This document shows, piece by piece, positions 10,988-25,936 of a DNA stretch of 33,320 nt. A program made the position numbers and the translations under genes. The stretch's first letter is position 1. Each line of letters opens with the position of its first letter. This DNA comes from an uncultured Bacilli bacterium (GTDB lineage Bacteria > Bacillota_I > Bacilli_A > RF39 > UBA660): NCBI GenBank assembly GCA_947595345.1, contig CANQEQ010000005.1:1-33320 (forward strand). Direction: 5' to 3'. Below the pieces are notes generated by a model. The model worked only from the letters and a program-made list of their open reading frames with translations, made no database searches and was not told where the DNA came from.

Positions 10988-13282
10988 ATGAAGAACAAAA
11001 AGAATATTGGGTTAGTATTAACAATAGTCGGTGGTTTATTTTTAGTGTTTGGTCTAAGCTATGCATTCTATAATTATGTTATAACCGGAGACCAAAATAC
11101 AGTTTTAGTAACAGGAGACATCTATATGAACTATACAGAAAATAATCAAATAAGTTTAACAGATGCAGTTCCTATGACAAAAGACGATGCCTTAAAATTA
11201 AATGATAATGTATTTAATTTTACAATAAGTGGTAAAAATCAAAGTACGAAAGACATCTATTATGGAATAAGTATAGTGTATGGAGAAGAAGAAGCTACTA
11301 AAACAAGATTAAAAGATAAAGATATAGATGTCTACTTAACAAGTGGCGACGATGTCTTAGTAAATGCCAATAGATATAAGACATTAAATGATACTAGAAT
11401 ATGGGTAGAGAAAATCAATGCCAATACAGATACATACACAAAAGATTATTCAATAAGATTATGGATAGACGAGAGTGTAACAGTAAGTGATACAGGAGGA
11501 GATTATACTCAAGAAGTATGGAATAATAGCTATGCAAGTTTCAAGGTAAAAGTAGATGGAAATCTAGATAAAATGAACATACCACTTGGGGTTGATTATC
11601 AAAATTCATACTATGAAAATGGAAAGACATATTTCAATGTAGAAATAAGTAATTACTTAAATCCAAGTGTAGCAGGAATAAGTTTATCTTCTGCTGATAC
11701 TATGAAAGTAGATATAACTAAAACCAATGATAACATAAGTTTTAGTTATACTGATAGTGAACAAAACTCAAGTGATAGTGAATTACAATCAATTAGTCAA
11801 ACTTATTCATTTGATAGTAATAAAAAAGTGACCATGAAAGTATTAGTTAATACTAAAGATGGAATAGATTTAAAAACAGACATTAGTATCAAATTAACTA
11901 AAAATGACAATGAGACTTATGAAATACTTAAATATATGCATATAAGAGGACCAAAGAATTATTGTAAAAACAATGGCTTCACAAATTTTGCAGATTGTTT
12001 ATTAGTATCTGAACAATTAAGTAATAATGTAGAAGAAGCTAAGAAAGCAATTCAAGATAAAGGAGAAGCAGATACAAGTAAGACAAGTGAAGCAACCGGA
12101 GAAATCGGTTTATATAAAACAGTAGATAATGATGGAGATACGTATTATTATAGAGGAGCAGTAGAAAACAACAATGTAAAATTCGCAGGTTTCTACTGGA
12201 AAATCATAAGAGTAAATGGTGATGGTTCTATAAGATTAATCTATAATGGAACTAAACCAAATTCCACTGGCTATGATGCTTCTTCAATAACTGGTAAAGG
12301 TGAAGCATATAATTTAAAAAATGTAGATGCAACTTATGTTGGATATATGTATGGAGATAATTTTAGTAAAACTCCAGTTAAAAGTACAACACCAGCAACT
12401 TATGGAAATATAGCAGAAGGTACAAAATATTATTTTGCCAAAGCATATACAAGTGACAATGAAACTAAAACTTTTAAGTTAAAAAATGCTGATTATGTTG
12501 GAACTTTTACGGAATGGAATGCCAATAATAAATTAGCACAAGGTTATAAATATACTTGTAAATCAACCTTAGCAGATGGAACTTGTCAATTTTTAATGGA
12601 AATAACAAATTTTTTAAATTCAACTAATGTTCAAGCATATATTTGGACATATGGCTCAACAAGTTATGAAAACACAACAAAAGATAATGTGAGTAGTAAT
12701 GCTAAAACTATTCTTGAAAACTGGTATACAAATACACTTTCAATTAAAAATGAAAATGGAATAATTGTTACAAATTATATAAATGAAGATGCAACCTTTT
12801 GTAATGATAGAAGTCTATCTTCTCAAGAGGGAAATGGAAATGGTTATGCAACAGTTCCAACTACTTATTATGGTGCTTATGATAGAAATGTTAATAAGCA
12901 TTTGCCTAGTTTAGAATGTCCGAATTCTACTGATTTATTTAGTGCCTCTGATGCATCAAAAGGAAATAGAAAATTAGAAAAACCAATAGGATTAATCACA
13001 GCTGACGAAATAGCTTATGCTGGTGATGTTTATACTATGAAAGGTGAAAAAAATTATCTACATATAGGAATTTACTTTTGGAGTATGTCACCGTTTTTTT
13101 TCAATGCTAATTATGTTGATGCTGATATGTTTTATATTACATCGGCTGATGTATTTCATGTAGGAGCCGTTTCCTTTAATGGTCCTGGTCTTCGTGCAGT
13201 TATCAATTTAAAATCAGATGTATTAGTTAAAAATGGAAATGGAACAATGGATGACCCATATACAGTAAAATTAGCTAATTAA
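10988..13282 (+). CDS. Large exported surface protein 1, TasA/camelysin-like N-terminus
   Basis: A 764-residue protein. Its N-terminal hydrophobic segment (about 7-28, ending GLSYAFYNY) resembles signal sequences of TasA/camelysin-type proteins, which are often processed by SipW-like peptidases. Residues about 38-195 form a beta-rich domain shared with the gene at 13698 (TGDIYMNYTE, RIWVEKI, EVWNNSYAS). A middle region (200-320) is followed from about 371 (GEIGLYKTVD) by a large C-terminal domain rich in aromatic and Asn residues, with scattered Cys, ending GNGTMDDPYTVKLAN. No LPXTG or C-terminal anchor is seen. A fibre- or coat-forming surface protein is plausible but unproven. AGAGGAGG is a strong ribosome site, and expression is probably controlled by the divergent regulator. 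Confidence 0.75.
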   Translation: MKNKKNIGLVLTIVGGLFLVFGLSYAFYNYVITGDQNTVLVTGDIYMNYTENNQISLTDAVPMTKDDALKLNDNVFNFTISGKNQSTKDIYYGISIVYGEEEATKTRLKDKDIDVYLTSGDDVLVNANRYKTLNDTRIWVEKINANTDTYTKDYSIRLWIDESVTVSDTGGDYTQEVWNNSYASFKVKVDGNLDKMNIPLGVDYQNSYYENGKTYFNVEISNYLNPSVAGISLSSADTMKVDITKTNDNISFSYTDSEQNSSDSELQSISQTYSFDSNKKVTMKVLVNTKDGIDLKTDISIKLTKNDNETYEILKYMHIRGPKNYCKNNGFTNFADCLLVSEQLSNNVEEAKKAIQDKGEADTSKTSEATGEIGLYKTVDNDGDTYYYRGAVENNNVKFAGFYWKIIRVNGDGSIRLIYNGTKPNSTGYDASSITGKGEAYNLKNVDATYVGYMYGDNFSKTPVKSTTPATYGNIAEGTKYYFAKAYTSDNETKTFKLKNADYVGTFTEWNANNKLAQGYKYTCKSTLADGTCQFLMEITNFLNSTNVQAYIWTYGSTSYENTTKDNVSSNAKTILENWYTNTLSIKNENGIIVTNYINEDATFCNDRSLSSQEGNGNGYATVPTTYYGAYDRNVNKHLPSLECPNSTDLFSASDASKGNRKLEKPIGLITADEIAYAGDVYTMKGEKNYLHIGIYFWSMSPFFFNANYVDADMFYITSADVFHVGAVSFNGPGLRAVINLKSDVLVKNGNGTMDDPYTVKLAN

Positions 13283-13697: not shown

Positions 13698-15305
13698 ATG
13701 AAGAATAAAAGATTAATTCTTTCAATATTAATATTAGGAGTAATATTTATAACTTTTGGTTTTACTTATGCTTTATTTGAAGCATCAAGAACTGGAAAAA
13801 ATAATAATATATTAGTAGCAGGAGATATTTATATGCATTATAATGAAAGTAATGTTTTAAACTTAAACAATGCATCTCCAAGAGATGAGTATGACCCTAA
13901 TAGTTATTTTGAATTTACAATAGATGGAAAGAATGAATATACTAAAAAGGATATATGGTACGATATAACCTTAACTTATGGAGATAAAGTAGAAGGAAAG
14001 AAAACAAGAATAAGCGATTATTTATTAAAATTTAGGTTAGTAGAAAATAGAGGAGGTACAGAAAAAGTCTTATTTGATAATAAATCATATAATGATATAA
14101 AAAATAAGAGAATATGGGTAGATAAAATAGAAAAAGATACAAAAGAAGAAATCAAAATAACTTATAAATTATATATGTGGCTTAGTAATGAATTAGAAGT
14201 AGGAAATACTAATACAGCAACTTATACACCAGATGTATGGAATAATGATTTATATGCTAGTGTGAAAGTAAATGTAACTGGTGACTTTGAAGAAAAAACA
14301 TTAAATGAAGGGGAAGAAAGAGCAGTAGATGTAATAAAAAAGAAAGTAAATCAAAATGGACAAGTAATAGCAATAGATAATAATAGTAATAAGTGTCAAG
14401 ATATAGCAAATTGTAATATAAGAGAATATAGATATTCCGGTTTAGTTGCTAACAATTATGTTAAATTAAATAATAATAATCAAGACGAACTTTGGAGAAT
14501 AATCGGAGTTTTCAAAGAAGATAATGAAGAATATATTAAGTTAGTTAGAAATGATGAATTACCTAAAGAAATAATACCTAATGATTATGTGATAGATGGT
14601 ACTACTTATAAAATTTCAGCTAATGATATTTCTAGGCCAAATTCAGTATATTGGAATTATGTAACTGGTACTGAAGAAGATAAAAATAATTGGAGTGAAG
14701 CAGGACTTCAATATTATCTAAATACTGAGAAAGATAGTAAAGGAACGAAAGGTTATTTAAGCTATTTATCAACTGAAACGAAATTAATGTTAAGAGATAC
14801 AACATATTATTTTGGAACAATTGATAATGCAATTGGAAAAGATAATACTATACTAGCATATGAGCATGAACGAGATGTTAAAAATTGTAAAGGAAATACA
14901 GGAGTAAATCAAGAAGAACTTGGTTGCCGTGTATGGGCAGGTAATCCGGCAACTTGGACTGGTACAGTAGGACTAATGTATGCCAGTGATATAGGTTTTA
15001 CCTATCAAAATACCTATTGGGAAAAAGATATTTTTAGTTTAAATGAAGTTGATATATCTAATTCTTGGCAAAAGAAAGAATTATCAACACTTAATTACTC
15101 TATTTGGCTTATGAATAATTCAGTGTATAGTAACCATACTGCTCCTTATGGAGGTGCTCAAGGTGATATACGTAATGTTGGAGTTAATTCGTTAAATGGT
15201 GGTAATCAAGCACTTCAACCAGTATTGACTATTAAACAAGAGGTTAAAATAACAAGTGGAAATGGAACAATGGATGACCCATATACAGTAAAATTAGCAA
15301 GTTAA
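13698..15305 (+). CDS. Exported surface protein 2, TasA/camelysin-like N-terminus
   Basis: A 535-residue paralogue of surface protein 1. It has a hydrophobic N-terminus (about 6-27, ending GFTYALFEAS), then the shared beta-rich domain (VAGDIYMHYNE at about 40-50, KRIWVDKIE, DVWNNDLYAS). A shorter C-terminal domain begins around residue 210 and includes YSGLVANNYVKL, LWRIIGVF, a WLMNN segment and the final GNGTMDDPYTVKLAS. Compared with protein 1 it lacks about 230 residues, mainly the middle region and part of the C-terminal domain. AAGGAG precedes the ATG. A structural surface or matrix role is inferred from the N-terminal resemblance only. Confidence 0.75.
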   Translation: MKNKRLILSILILGVIFITFGFTYALFEASRTGKNNNILVAGDIYMHYNESNVLNLNNASPRDEYDPNSYFEFTIDGKNEYTKKDIWYDITLTYGDKVEGKKTRISDYLLKFRLVENRGGTEKVLFDNKSYNDIKNKRIWVDKIEKDTKEEIKITYKLYMWLSNELEVGNTNTATYTPDVWNNDLYASVKVNVTGDFEEKTLNEGEERAVDVIKKKVNQNGQVIAIDNNSNKCQDIANCNIREYRYSGLVANNYVKLNNNNQDELWRIIGVFKEDNEEYIKLVRNDELPKEIIPNDYVIDGTTYKISANDISRPNSVYWNYVTGTEEDKNNWSEAGLQYYLNTEKDSKGTKGYLSYLSTETKLMLRDTTYYFGTIDNAIGKDNTILAYEHERDVKNCKGNTGVNQEELGCRVWAGNPATWTGTVGLMYASDIGFTYQNTYWEKDIFSLNEVDISNSWQKKELSTLNYSIWLMNNSVYSNHTAPYGGAQGDIRNVGVNSLNGGNQALQPVLTIKQEVKITSGNGTMDDPYTVKLAS

Positions 15306-15361: not shown

Positions 15362-15466
15362 AATAAAAAGCTGACCATTGGTTAGCTTTTTGTCTATGCC
15401 TATCGGCACTTGTCTTAGTATATATTTAATTAAATATACACCGTCTAAGCATTTCTGCTCCTGTAC
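15362..15466 (-). ncRNA. Candidate structured small RNA, about 105 nt, family not recognised
   Basis: In the 312-base gap after surface gene 2, the minus strand carries a complete small transcription unit: a promoter at 15471-15499, a body without an open frame, and an intrinsic terminator. Read on the minus strand, the RNA would contain a hairpin AGCA-GAAA-TGCT with a GNRA loop (about 15447-15458), a long AU hairpin with arms GTGTATAT and ATATATAC enclosed by TTAG/CTAA, a hairpin TGCC-GATA-GGCA (about 15396-15407), and the terminator stem followed by CTTTTTATTTT. It is locally richer in G+C than its surroundings. I could not match it to SRP RNA, 6S RNA, tmRNA or a riboswitch class from memory. 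The ends are estimates. Confidence 0.6.
15367..15391. terminator. Bidirectional terminator of surface gene 2 and the minus-strand RNA
   Basis: AAAGCTGACC pairs with GGTTAGCTTT around ATT (one G-T pair), flanked by T residues on the plus strand and by CTTTTTATTTT on the minus strand, so it can end transcripts from both sides. Confidence 0.75.
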
Positions 15467-15470
15467 CTAC

Positions 15471-15499
15471 ATATTATACTAATATTGTATTTTAGTCAA
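15471..15499 (-). promoter_or_regulatory. Promoter of the candidate small RNA
   Basis: On the minus strand TTGACT (15499-15494) and TAATAT (15476-15471) are 17 bases apart. An overlapping TATAAT lies at a 15-base spacing. No gene start follows, only the candidate RNA. Confidence 0.65.
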
Positions 15500-23965: not shown

Positions 23966-25936
23966 ATGGAAAAAGATGAAAACAATAAGTTTTTAGGAGA
24001 GGAGAAAATAAGTAAATTATTAGTAAAATTTTCTATACCATGTATTTTATCTTTACTTATTAGTTCATTATATAATATAGTAGACCAAATATTTATAGGT
24101 AATAGTGAATTAGGTTATTTAGGTAATGCTGCAACTAGTATTGTTTATCCAATTACAATTATAGCTGTTGCCTTTGCTTGGTGCTTCGGAGATGGAGCTG
24201 CAGCTTATTTATCTCTTTGTCAAGGAAGAGGAGATACTAAAAATAGCCATCAAGGAATAGGTAATAGTATTTTAATAACTTTTATTATTAGTATTATTTT
24301 CTTAATCTTAGGCTTTATGTTTCAAGATAATTTATTATATTTATTTGGAGCTAGTTCTAAAAGTATTAGTTTAGCTAGAGATTATTTTACAATTATATTA
24401 TTAGGTATTCCAATTTATATGCTTGCTAATAGTATGAATGCTGTTATAAGAGCTGATGGTTCACCTTTCTTTTCAATGCTTGCAACTATAATCGGAGCAG
24501 TTATTAATATTATTTTAGACCCAATTTTTATTTTTACTTTCAATATGGGAATAAAAGGAGCAGCCATTGCTACTGTTATAGGTCAAATAGCTTCTTTTAT
24601 AGTATCTGTAATTTATTATACAAGAACTAAAACTTTTAAATTAAAATTAAGTAGTTTTAAAATTAATTTTAAAATATTTAAAAATATTATTAAATTAGGA
24701 ATATCTACTTTTATAACACAAATGAGTATAGTTATTATTTCTTTAGTATGTAATATTATGCTTGCAAAGTATGGGGCTTTAAGTAAATATGGTGCTGATA
24801 TTCCAATTGCTGTAATTGGTATTACTATGAAAGTATTTTCTATTGTTATTAATATTATAGTAGGAATTATTTTAGGAGCTCAACCTATTTTAGGTTATAA
24901 TTTTGGGGCTAAAAATATTGATAGAGTAAAAGAAACATTTAAAAAAGTAGTAATTGCTTCAATTATAGTAGGTATTATATCAACTATTTTATTTGAACTT
25001 TGTCCAAGTTTAATTATTAGTATTTTTGGTAATAGTAATGAACTTTATATGGAATTTGCGACTTTAACATTTAGATTATTTTTAATGTTAGTAATATTTA
25101 CTTGTTTAATAAAATTAACATCTATTTTCTTTCAAGCTGTTGGAGAACCTTTAAAGTCAGCTATTGTTTCTTTAACAAGAGATATTATTTTCTTTATCCC
25201 ACTTGTTATAATACTACCTAGGATATTTGGGATAAAAGGAGCTTTAATTGCTGCTCCTATTGCTGATTTTTTAGGAATAATAGTAACTATTATTTTAGTT
25301 AAAAAGTTCTTTAAAGGTTTAGATACTAAAATATTAGATAATAAGGAAGTTAATTATCAAAGTTCAAGGGAAGGTGTGATTATTACAATTTCAAGAAGTC
25401 ATGGAAGTCAAGGAAAAGCTATTGGAGAATTAGTTGCTAAAGAATTAAATATTCCTTATTATTATAAAGAAATGACAGCTCTTGCAGCTAAAGAAAGTGG
25501 TTTAGATAAAGAATTTATATCTAATATAAATGAAAATAAAGATATTTTACATGATTTATATTTAACATCAACACCTGTAAAATATGCTATTGAAGCTCAA
25601 GAAAAAGTAATTAAAATGATAGCTTCTAAAGGTTCTTGTGTTTTAGTAGGACGGGCTTCTGATTATGTATTAAAAGATAATAAAAATGTTATTAAAGTAT
25701 TTATCTATGCACCTTTTGAATATAGAGTAAAAAAAGTAATGGAAATGTATAAAGATACTAAAGATAAAGCTATTAAAAATGTATTAAAATCTGATAAAAA
25801 TAGAGCAAGTTATTATGAACTTATATCTGGTAATACTTGGGGAAATCCTGTTAATTATGATTTATGTATAAATTCTAAAATTGGAAAACTTGAAACAGCT
25901 AATGTTATTGTAGATTATATTAAAAATAGGAAATAA
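23966..25936 (+). CDS. MATE-family transporter fused to a cytidylate-kinase-like domain
   Basis: A 656-residue fusion. Residues about 10-455 are a MATE (multidrug/toxin extrusion) transporter with about 12 membrane helices. Typical segments are the opening LLVKFSIPCILSLLISSLYN, VDQIFIGN, NAVIRADGSPFFSM, LDPIFIF and GAQPILGYNFGAKN. After a short linker, residues about 471-656 form a cytosolic cytidylate-kinase-like P-loop domain: TISRSHGSQGKAIGELVAKEL (phosphate loop GSQGK at 480-484) and CVLVGRASDYVL. Length and reading frame show no break. MATE proteins use Na+ or H+ gradients to expel small molecules; the kinase-like part might sense or phosphorylate a nucleotide or related ligand. This coupling is speculation. 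AAGGAGGAG precedes the ATG. Confidence 0.88.
   Translation: MEKDENNKFLGEEKISKLLVKFSIPCILSLLISSLYNIVDQIFIGNSELGYLGNAATSIVYPITIIAVAFAWCFGDGAAAYLSLCQGRGDTKNSHQGIGNSILITFIISIIFLILGFMFQDNLLYLFGASSKSISLARDYFTIILLGIPIYMLANSMNAVIRADGSPFFSMLATIIGAVINIILDPIFIFTFNMGIKGAAIATVIGQIASFIVSVIYYTRTKTFKLKLSSFKINFKIFKNIIKLGISTFITQMSIVIISLVCNIMLAKYGALSKYGADIPIAVIGITMKVFSIVINIIVGIILGAQPILGYNFGAKNIDRVKETFKKVVIASIIVGIISTILFELCPSLIISIFGNSNELYMEFATLTFRLFLMLVIFTCLIKLTSIFFQAVGEPLKSAIVSLTRDIIFFIPLVIILPRIFGIKGALIAAPIADFLGIIVTIILVKKFFKGLDTKILDNKEVNYQSSREGVIITISRSHGSQGKAIGELVAKELNIPYYYKEMTALAAKESGLDKEFISNINENKDILHDLYLTSTPVKYAIEAQEKVIKMIASKGSCVLVGRASDYVLKDNKNVIKVFIYAPFEYRVKKVMEMYKDTKDKAIKNVLKSDKNRASYYELISGNTWGNPVNYDLCINSKIGKLETANVIVDYIKNRK

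Follow-up and report, generated by a model that had tools for sequence, protein, structure and literature searches.

The window, a stretch of 33,320 nucleotides from an uncultured Bacilli bacterium, carries on its minus strand a small RNA gene (15365–15466) with transcription signals of its own. A −35 element TTGACT (15499–15494) is followed after a 17-nt spacer by a −10 element TAATAT (15476–15471), and the transcript is inferred to start at about 15466–15463 and to end at 15365. Close to its 5′ end, the site ACAGG (15460–15464) adjoins hairpin 1 (GAGCA-GAAA-UGCUU, 15460–15447). This is followed by a long AU hairpin (15441–15418) and a second site, ACAAG (15409–15413), with hairpin 3 (GUGCC-GAUA-GGCAU, 15409–15396). 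Both sites fit the pattern ACARG, with R being G at the first and A at the second. The gene ends with an intrinsic terminator (AAAAAGCTAACCAATGGTCAGCTTTTT, 15391–15365) that works two ways, since its T run is present also for the convergent plus-strand gene (13698–15305).

The first-pass annotation, made from the sequence alone, had described at this place a minus-strand TTGACT-17-TAATAT promoter, about 105 nt of non-coding sequence with a GNRA hairpin, an AU hairpin and a TGCC-GATA-GGCA hairpin, and a terminator common to the RNA and the convergent surface gene. All of these elements were located between 15499 and 15365, and the RNA folds with −30.7 kcal/mol (z −4.89), a value which none of 200 shuffles equaled. 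Its description as non-coding and comparatively GC-rich was likewise borne out, with no reading frame of at least 80 aa over the RNA and a G+C content of 35% against 25% for the whole window. As the annotation had supposed, the RNA belongs to no family in Rfam, where a covariance-model check gave no match at gathering or relaxed thresholds; a tRNA/tmRNA search of the RNA also had no match. In the absence of expression data, transcription remains inferred. Elsewhere in the window, the plus-strand frames 10988–13282 and 13698–15305 are neighboring paralogues (764 and 535 aa) without a Pfam match, and the single plus-strand frame 23966–25936 joins a MatE transporter to a cytidylate-kinase-like domain, an unusual architecture. 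What looks like the same fusion, judged without a domain scan of that frame, lies near the orphan copy of the RNA in genome G330 (L044:1–1794).

Taken alone, the promoter pattern occurs at or below chance level (5 sites found, 7.3 ± 2.8 expected), and relatives of the RNA were therefore needed. BLAST of related genomes revealed three copies (in G009, G010 and G008), which together with the window sequence were used to build the covariance model R1. The window RNA, as one of the four founders, scores 99 bits and meets the full definition of the model (covariance match, promoter, two ACARG-hairpins, middle hairpin and terminator). Of the 386 family genomes, 16 gave an R1 match, one being doubtful; the locus G374/L057 (30.8 bits) was left out as a doubtful match. 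A class-wide search of 395 genomes found it in its own genome only, so this RNA type seems to be restricted to a single gut Bacilli family. BLASTN of phage and plasmid records gave no match to the window RNA, and the seven matches of the exact core pattern in viral contigs, all below 24 bits, were discarded as chance.

In an alignment of 32 RNA copies (the window and 31 homologues), 93% of the cells are paired and 57 cells carry double changes, compared to 22 in shuffles. The covariation score exceeds those of all 500 shuffles and of all slid versions. Compensatory changes, which the first-pass annotation had proposed as a check, are thus present. These figures lean toward structure because the alignment includes the four founders and was fitted to R1. 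Despite this bias, the middle hairpin and a CG/UA exchange in hairpin 3 can be recognized by eye. Hairpin 1 is almost invariant, the middle AU hairpin is free in sequence with double changes at six of its ten pairs, and hairpin 3 is paired in 100% of cells with one pair alternating between CG and UA (16:15). The terminators differ in sequence but occupy the same place. The promoter is made credible by its conservation: most homologues have TTGAC[AT]-17/18-TA[GA][AT]AT in the corresponding position (28 of 32 copies by pattern, one of these 28 via a shifted hexamer). A chance coincidence of promoter-like site, hairpins and terminator without any function could appeal to the frequency of the promoter pattern, but the 31 homologues, the covariation and the conserved place of the RNA behind a toxin gene (see below) leave it practically no room. 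Thus, comparison of sequences supports an unrecognized, independently transcribed structured small RNA in the window and places it in a real RNA family.

Of the 19 RNA loci in the family genome sample, 12 are directly preceded on the same strand by a gene belonging to one and the same protein family, and all other neighbors of these 19 loci are unrelated. The upstream protein is PemK/MazF-like, matching PF02452 above the cut-off in three of the relatives' loci in a Pfam scan. A reverse search starting from the PemK protein yielded 29 loci in metagenome-assembled genomes of gut Bacilli from rabbit, deer, goat and other sources, and in 25 of them the RNA lies on the same strand 38–144 nt behind the pemK stop codon. 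The remaining four comprise two loci that end with the contig (L075 and L086), one with a decayed gene (L087), and one where a divergent promoter-hairpin-terminator stretch takes the place of the family RNA (L082). The decayed gene is a second pemK copy, without start codon and without RNA, in a genome which has an intact module elsewhere (L061). No small upstream frame that could encode a MazE-like or other protein antitoxin is conserved at the PemK loci, the only similarities being found in 2 of 406 locus pairs, and a MazE-like gene upstream of pemK was rejected on this ground. Because the RNA stands behind PemK at 25 of 29 loci in otherwise unrelated neighborhoods, toxin and RNA form one unit, and on the evidence of these loci their link is near-obligate.

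A small RNA gene adjoining a toxin gene might act by base pairing, either with the pemK mRNA in the manner of a type I system or, in the window, with the transcript of the convergent surface gene, which overlaps it at the common terminator. Such pairing would also be compatible with the loci L126 and L128–L130 of the wider class described below, where the RNA lies behind pemK on the opposite strand. The predicted duplex energies offer it no support, with −19.6 for the RNA and its own pemK 5′ region against −19.9 for shuffled targets and −19.2 for other loci, and antisense or type I pairing was rejected because these values match those of shuffled targets. Much of the conserved sequence is held in hairpins and not in single strands. 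Pairing of the 3′ ends with the convergent surface gene, which had been suggested from the window alone, is not conserved and remains unsupported since the neighbors, including the convergent partner, vary at every locus. We regard an antisense role in either form as very unlikely.

The AlphaFold2 model of PemK (pLDDT 79.5, weak at residues 20–50) has a MazF fold, with MazF proteins as the best PDB matches (target TM up to 0.84) and a TM of 0.78 to Bacillus subtilis MazF with RNA (4mdx). MazF was found by this fold search but not when PDB sequences were searched with the type A profile. PF02452 was the sole significant match of the protein in the Pfam scan, which places it outside the ToxN, CptN and TenpN families. 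In an HMM alignment, His79 of PemK faces an Arg of MazF, and the position of residue 160 is taken in MazF by the Glu of LLEQIRTI. Since the active-site Arg of MazF is replaced by His, ribonuclease activity of PemK is likely but not certain, and there are no toxicity data. The protein belongs to the phage family phrog_1412, and these toxins are missing from the 2023 PADLOC library. The PHROGs label of this family is "antitoxin mazE-like", its members being MazF-fold toxins, and phage records inherit the wrong name.

The RNA has a constant order of ACARG-hairpin 1, AU hairpin, ACARG-hairpin 3 and terminator, in which hairpins 1 and 3 behave as two copies of one element; at one locus (L085) hairpin 3 has acquired the sequence of hairpin 1 (UGCAGAAAUGCA). 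Conservation of ACA in the linkers is not strict at every site. In each of the 25 toxin-paired loci the two sites carry an identical variable base R, and this agreement is broken in three of seven orphan RNAs, which have no adjacent PemK (Fisher p 0.007). Mismatches occur in orphans only: G/A in the window and in L051, and A/U in L053. The identity of R is also reflected in the protein. Among the 23 aligned paired loci, A at R goes with Tyr80 and Lys160, and G at R with Phe80 and an acidic residue (Asp or Glu) at 160, without exception for either residue. Acidic side chains are commonly placed opposite guanine. Apart from columns 80 and 160, columns 61 and 107 of the protein also distinguish the two R groups, four in all. 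On the tree, R requires two changes, as does each of residues 80 and 160, so a residue-base sign test rests on only two independent changes, too few for significance. The agreement is consistent with direct recognition of the RNA by the protein, as far as aligned sequences with two changes allow. The twin elements and the residue-base agreement would suit direct contact equally well if the RNA served PemK as substrate, cofactor or sensor, for instance as one bound and cleaved by it, with phage infection signaled by the cleaved or modified form. A MazF-fold toxin without a conserved protein antitoxin, however, needs some other control, and the two-motif RNA of AbiF/RCd22 forms a neutralizing pair with its toxin (PMC12373285); we therefore consider a substrate, cofactor or sensor role unlikely, without dismissing it.

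The copy in the window is an orphan. Neither a PemK gene beside the RNA nor a remnant of one was found in the window, and a search of its genome, which is 94% complete, gave no PemK match; judged by these searches, the copy has lost its PemK or never had one. Six further orphan RNAs were found in G009, G330, G157, G394, G309 and G289, and PemK modules occur in two genomes of the window's own genus (G008 and G010). The orphans could suggest a housekeeping small RNA with its own targets that PemK modules captured later, as 7 of the 19 RNA loci lack an adjacent PemK in the type A position and several of these keep an intact promoter and terminator. Against this, the orphans have no common neighbors, and the RNA is as patchily distributed as the 16 of 386 genomes (one doubtful) given above. 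Some orphans are decaying (L053 and L051), and among genomes sharing the flanking phosphoesterase gene, the closest one (G014) lacks the RNA in this gap. A housekeeping origin thus has hardly any credit with us. With the toxin absent from the window and not found in the genome, the copy may instead be a remnant of a PemK module or a protection against incoming PemK modules circulating in the same genus; the function of orphan RNAs is in either case inferred.

The locus L002 in G009 was considered as a PemK-paired copy and rejected, the PemK there being of another type and the RNA an orphan. In the same genome (L058, 3224–3754), a PemK of another type is followed by a tRNA and an opposite-strand hairpin RNA and preceded by a 27-nt direct repeat, with the orphan window-type RNA 266 nt upstream. 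At L129, a decayed window-type RNA (TTACAAGAGCAGAAGTGCTTTAA...) lies about 250 nt behind pemK, beside a PemK/RNA module of another type.

A wider class of such modules is visible only via the toxin and not via RNA searches. Relatives of the toxin, many being divergent, were detected with its profile in 30 of 386 genomes, and in nearly every case the DNA behind the divergent pemK genes contains another promoter, hairpins and a terminator. These RNA types differ in sequence, and most consist of two like hairpins flanking a middle one. The same layout is found in Streptococcus and Staphylococcus phages between the repressor (or another early gene) and the integrase: Staphylococcus aureus phage SapYZUs7 carries CCGGUAACCAAUCCGG twice, and Streptococcus pneumoniae phage IPP9 has the hairpins GGAG-UUUAG-CUCC and GGAU-UUUAG-AUCC. 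Viral contigs (IMG/VR) yielded 80 loci when scanned; counted together with eight genome loci from the class search, 56 of them are distinct. Regions following PemK have a median fold z of −3.84, and those following other genes on the same contigs one of −0.91 (p 6e-11). Twin hairpins whose loops, of at least 5 nt, are identical occur in 14 of 76 regions downstream of PemK, with 0.0 expected from shuffles and none in 116 controls. The 14 regions include near-identical prophages and a few pairs formed by a middle hairpin and a terminator. An RNA common to sixteen viral loci could be aligned, in which a AGAAGACA-like element has AAGA as its invariant core. A scan of the related loci with Rfam 15 gave no match on the RNAs behind pemK. 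Two matches lie next to such modules: RF02589 (Spy779816, a Streptococcus pyogenes small RNA) adjoins the PemK RNA on the opposite strand in Streptococcus phage Javan178 (L133:2326–2412, minus strand), and a match to the abiF RNA (RF03085), barely at the gathering score, lies near a PemK/RNA module on a viral contig (L210:2503–2539).

Taken together, we think it probable that the window contains an orphan RNA antitoxin, which normally stands behind PemK as part of a type III-like, direct-binding module of reversed order. The RNA family, its link to PemK, the promoter, the structure, the twin elements and the absence of the toxin from the window are established insofar as genome sequences can establish them. 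Binding of the RNA to PemK, neutralization, occupation of the dimer and release through loss of the RNA are inferred, and no data on binding, neutralization, toxicity or expression are available. In the proposed mechanism, an RNA gene with its own promoter and terminator directly behind the gene of a MazF-fold toxin would produce two recognition elements, each an ACARG site with a short hairpin, held apart by the free AU hairpin. These elements would occupy both substrate sites of the PemK dimer as substrate mimics and keep the ribonuclease silent. Being short-lived, the RNA would be exhausted when the module is lost or when a phage takes over transcription, and the ribonuclease would be freed. 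With less assurance, we lean toward a broader proposal, in which these modules form a large unrecognized class with toxin-antitoxin and antiphage roles, built on phrog_1412/PF02452 MazF-fold ribonucleases with the active-site His, each dimer being held by one rapidly evolving two-hairpin RNA, with a hairpin per active site and a recognition code at residues 80 and 160, and the window RNA acting as an immunizing copy.

In searches of open-access papers, which did not extend to subscription journals or preprints, no account of an RNA behind a PemK gene was found. An RNA antitoxin behind PemK is hence probably, but not certainly, new. Such PemK/MazF-like proteins have been annotated as type II toxins lacking their antitoxin, as hypothetical, or, in phrog_1412, as "antitoxin mazE-like", and the present results provide this absent partner in the form of a small RNA, overlooked by gene annotation. 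On this basis, a widespread group of prophage and chromosomal toxins is predicted to be under RNA control, with a testable code in which ACAAG goes with Tyr80/Lys160 and ACAGG with Phe80 and Asp or Glu at 160. Orphan antitoxin RNAs, if confirmed, would represent a further layer, and the RNA in the window would immunize its genome against PemK modules.

PemK shares the toxin domain PF02452 and the MazF fold with the type II systems MazEF and PemIK. It differs from them in the lack of a conserved antitoxin protein, the exchange of the active-site Arg for His, an N-terminal helical extension of about 55 residues, an insert and the adjacent structured RNA. A MazF-like protein (SMA) of phage-related islands in S. 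aureus has antiphage activity and was described as a single protein (PMC12829572, PMC12948488). It resembles PemK in being MazF-like and in its phage-related setting; membership in phrog_1412 and an unnoticed RNA are no more than a lead. Other MazF-like antiphage genes regarded as "single-protein" systems might likewise have an RNA partner, a question which the present finding raises.

In type III toxin-antitoxin systems, one promoter is followed by tandem repeats of about 34–50 nt upstream of the toxin gene, a terminator and then the toxin (PMC5086642, PMC12373285), and the MazF fold is common to their toxins (PMC5086642). Like ToxIN, CptIN, TenpIN and AbiQ, the PemK modules combine an RNA partner with a MazF/Kid-fold toxin without a protein antitoxin, and share with them repeated RNA elements, an intrinsic terminator and a mobile, phage-borne distribution. 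In contrast to these systems, the PemK gene comes first, the RNA 38–144 nt downstream has two hairpin elements in place of a tandem array and a conserved promoter of its own in place of one common promoter, and the toxin is PF02452/phrog_1412 and not ToxN, CptN or TenpN. Their gene order differs from that of all type III systems in the sources used. The PemK module was not assigned to type III, because several of the defining features (PMC5086642) are unmet, but it likely works like a type III system, with direct neutralization being inferred.

In AbiF/RCd22, a two-motif RNA neutralizes the toxin by direct binding (PMC12373285). The AbiF toxin is an Abi_2/HEPN protein and not MazF-like, RCd22 is located upstream with read-through into the toxin gene, and its RNA motif (RF03085) is unrelated and gave no match in the window. 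Both systems are prophage-borne, and their RNAs, about 100–130 nt long, contain a short motif twice and have a terminator. The AbiF/RCd22 RNA acts in trans by binding a ribonuclease-type toxin, a feature which the PemK RNA would share if the inferred binding is correct. AbiF/RCd22 is the nearest proven parallel to the PemK modules.
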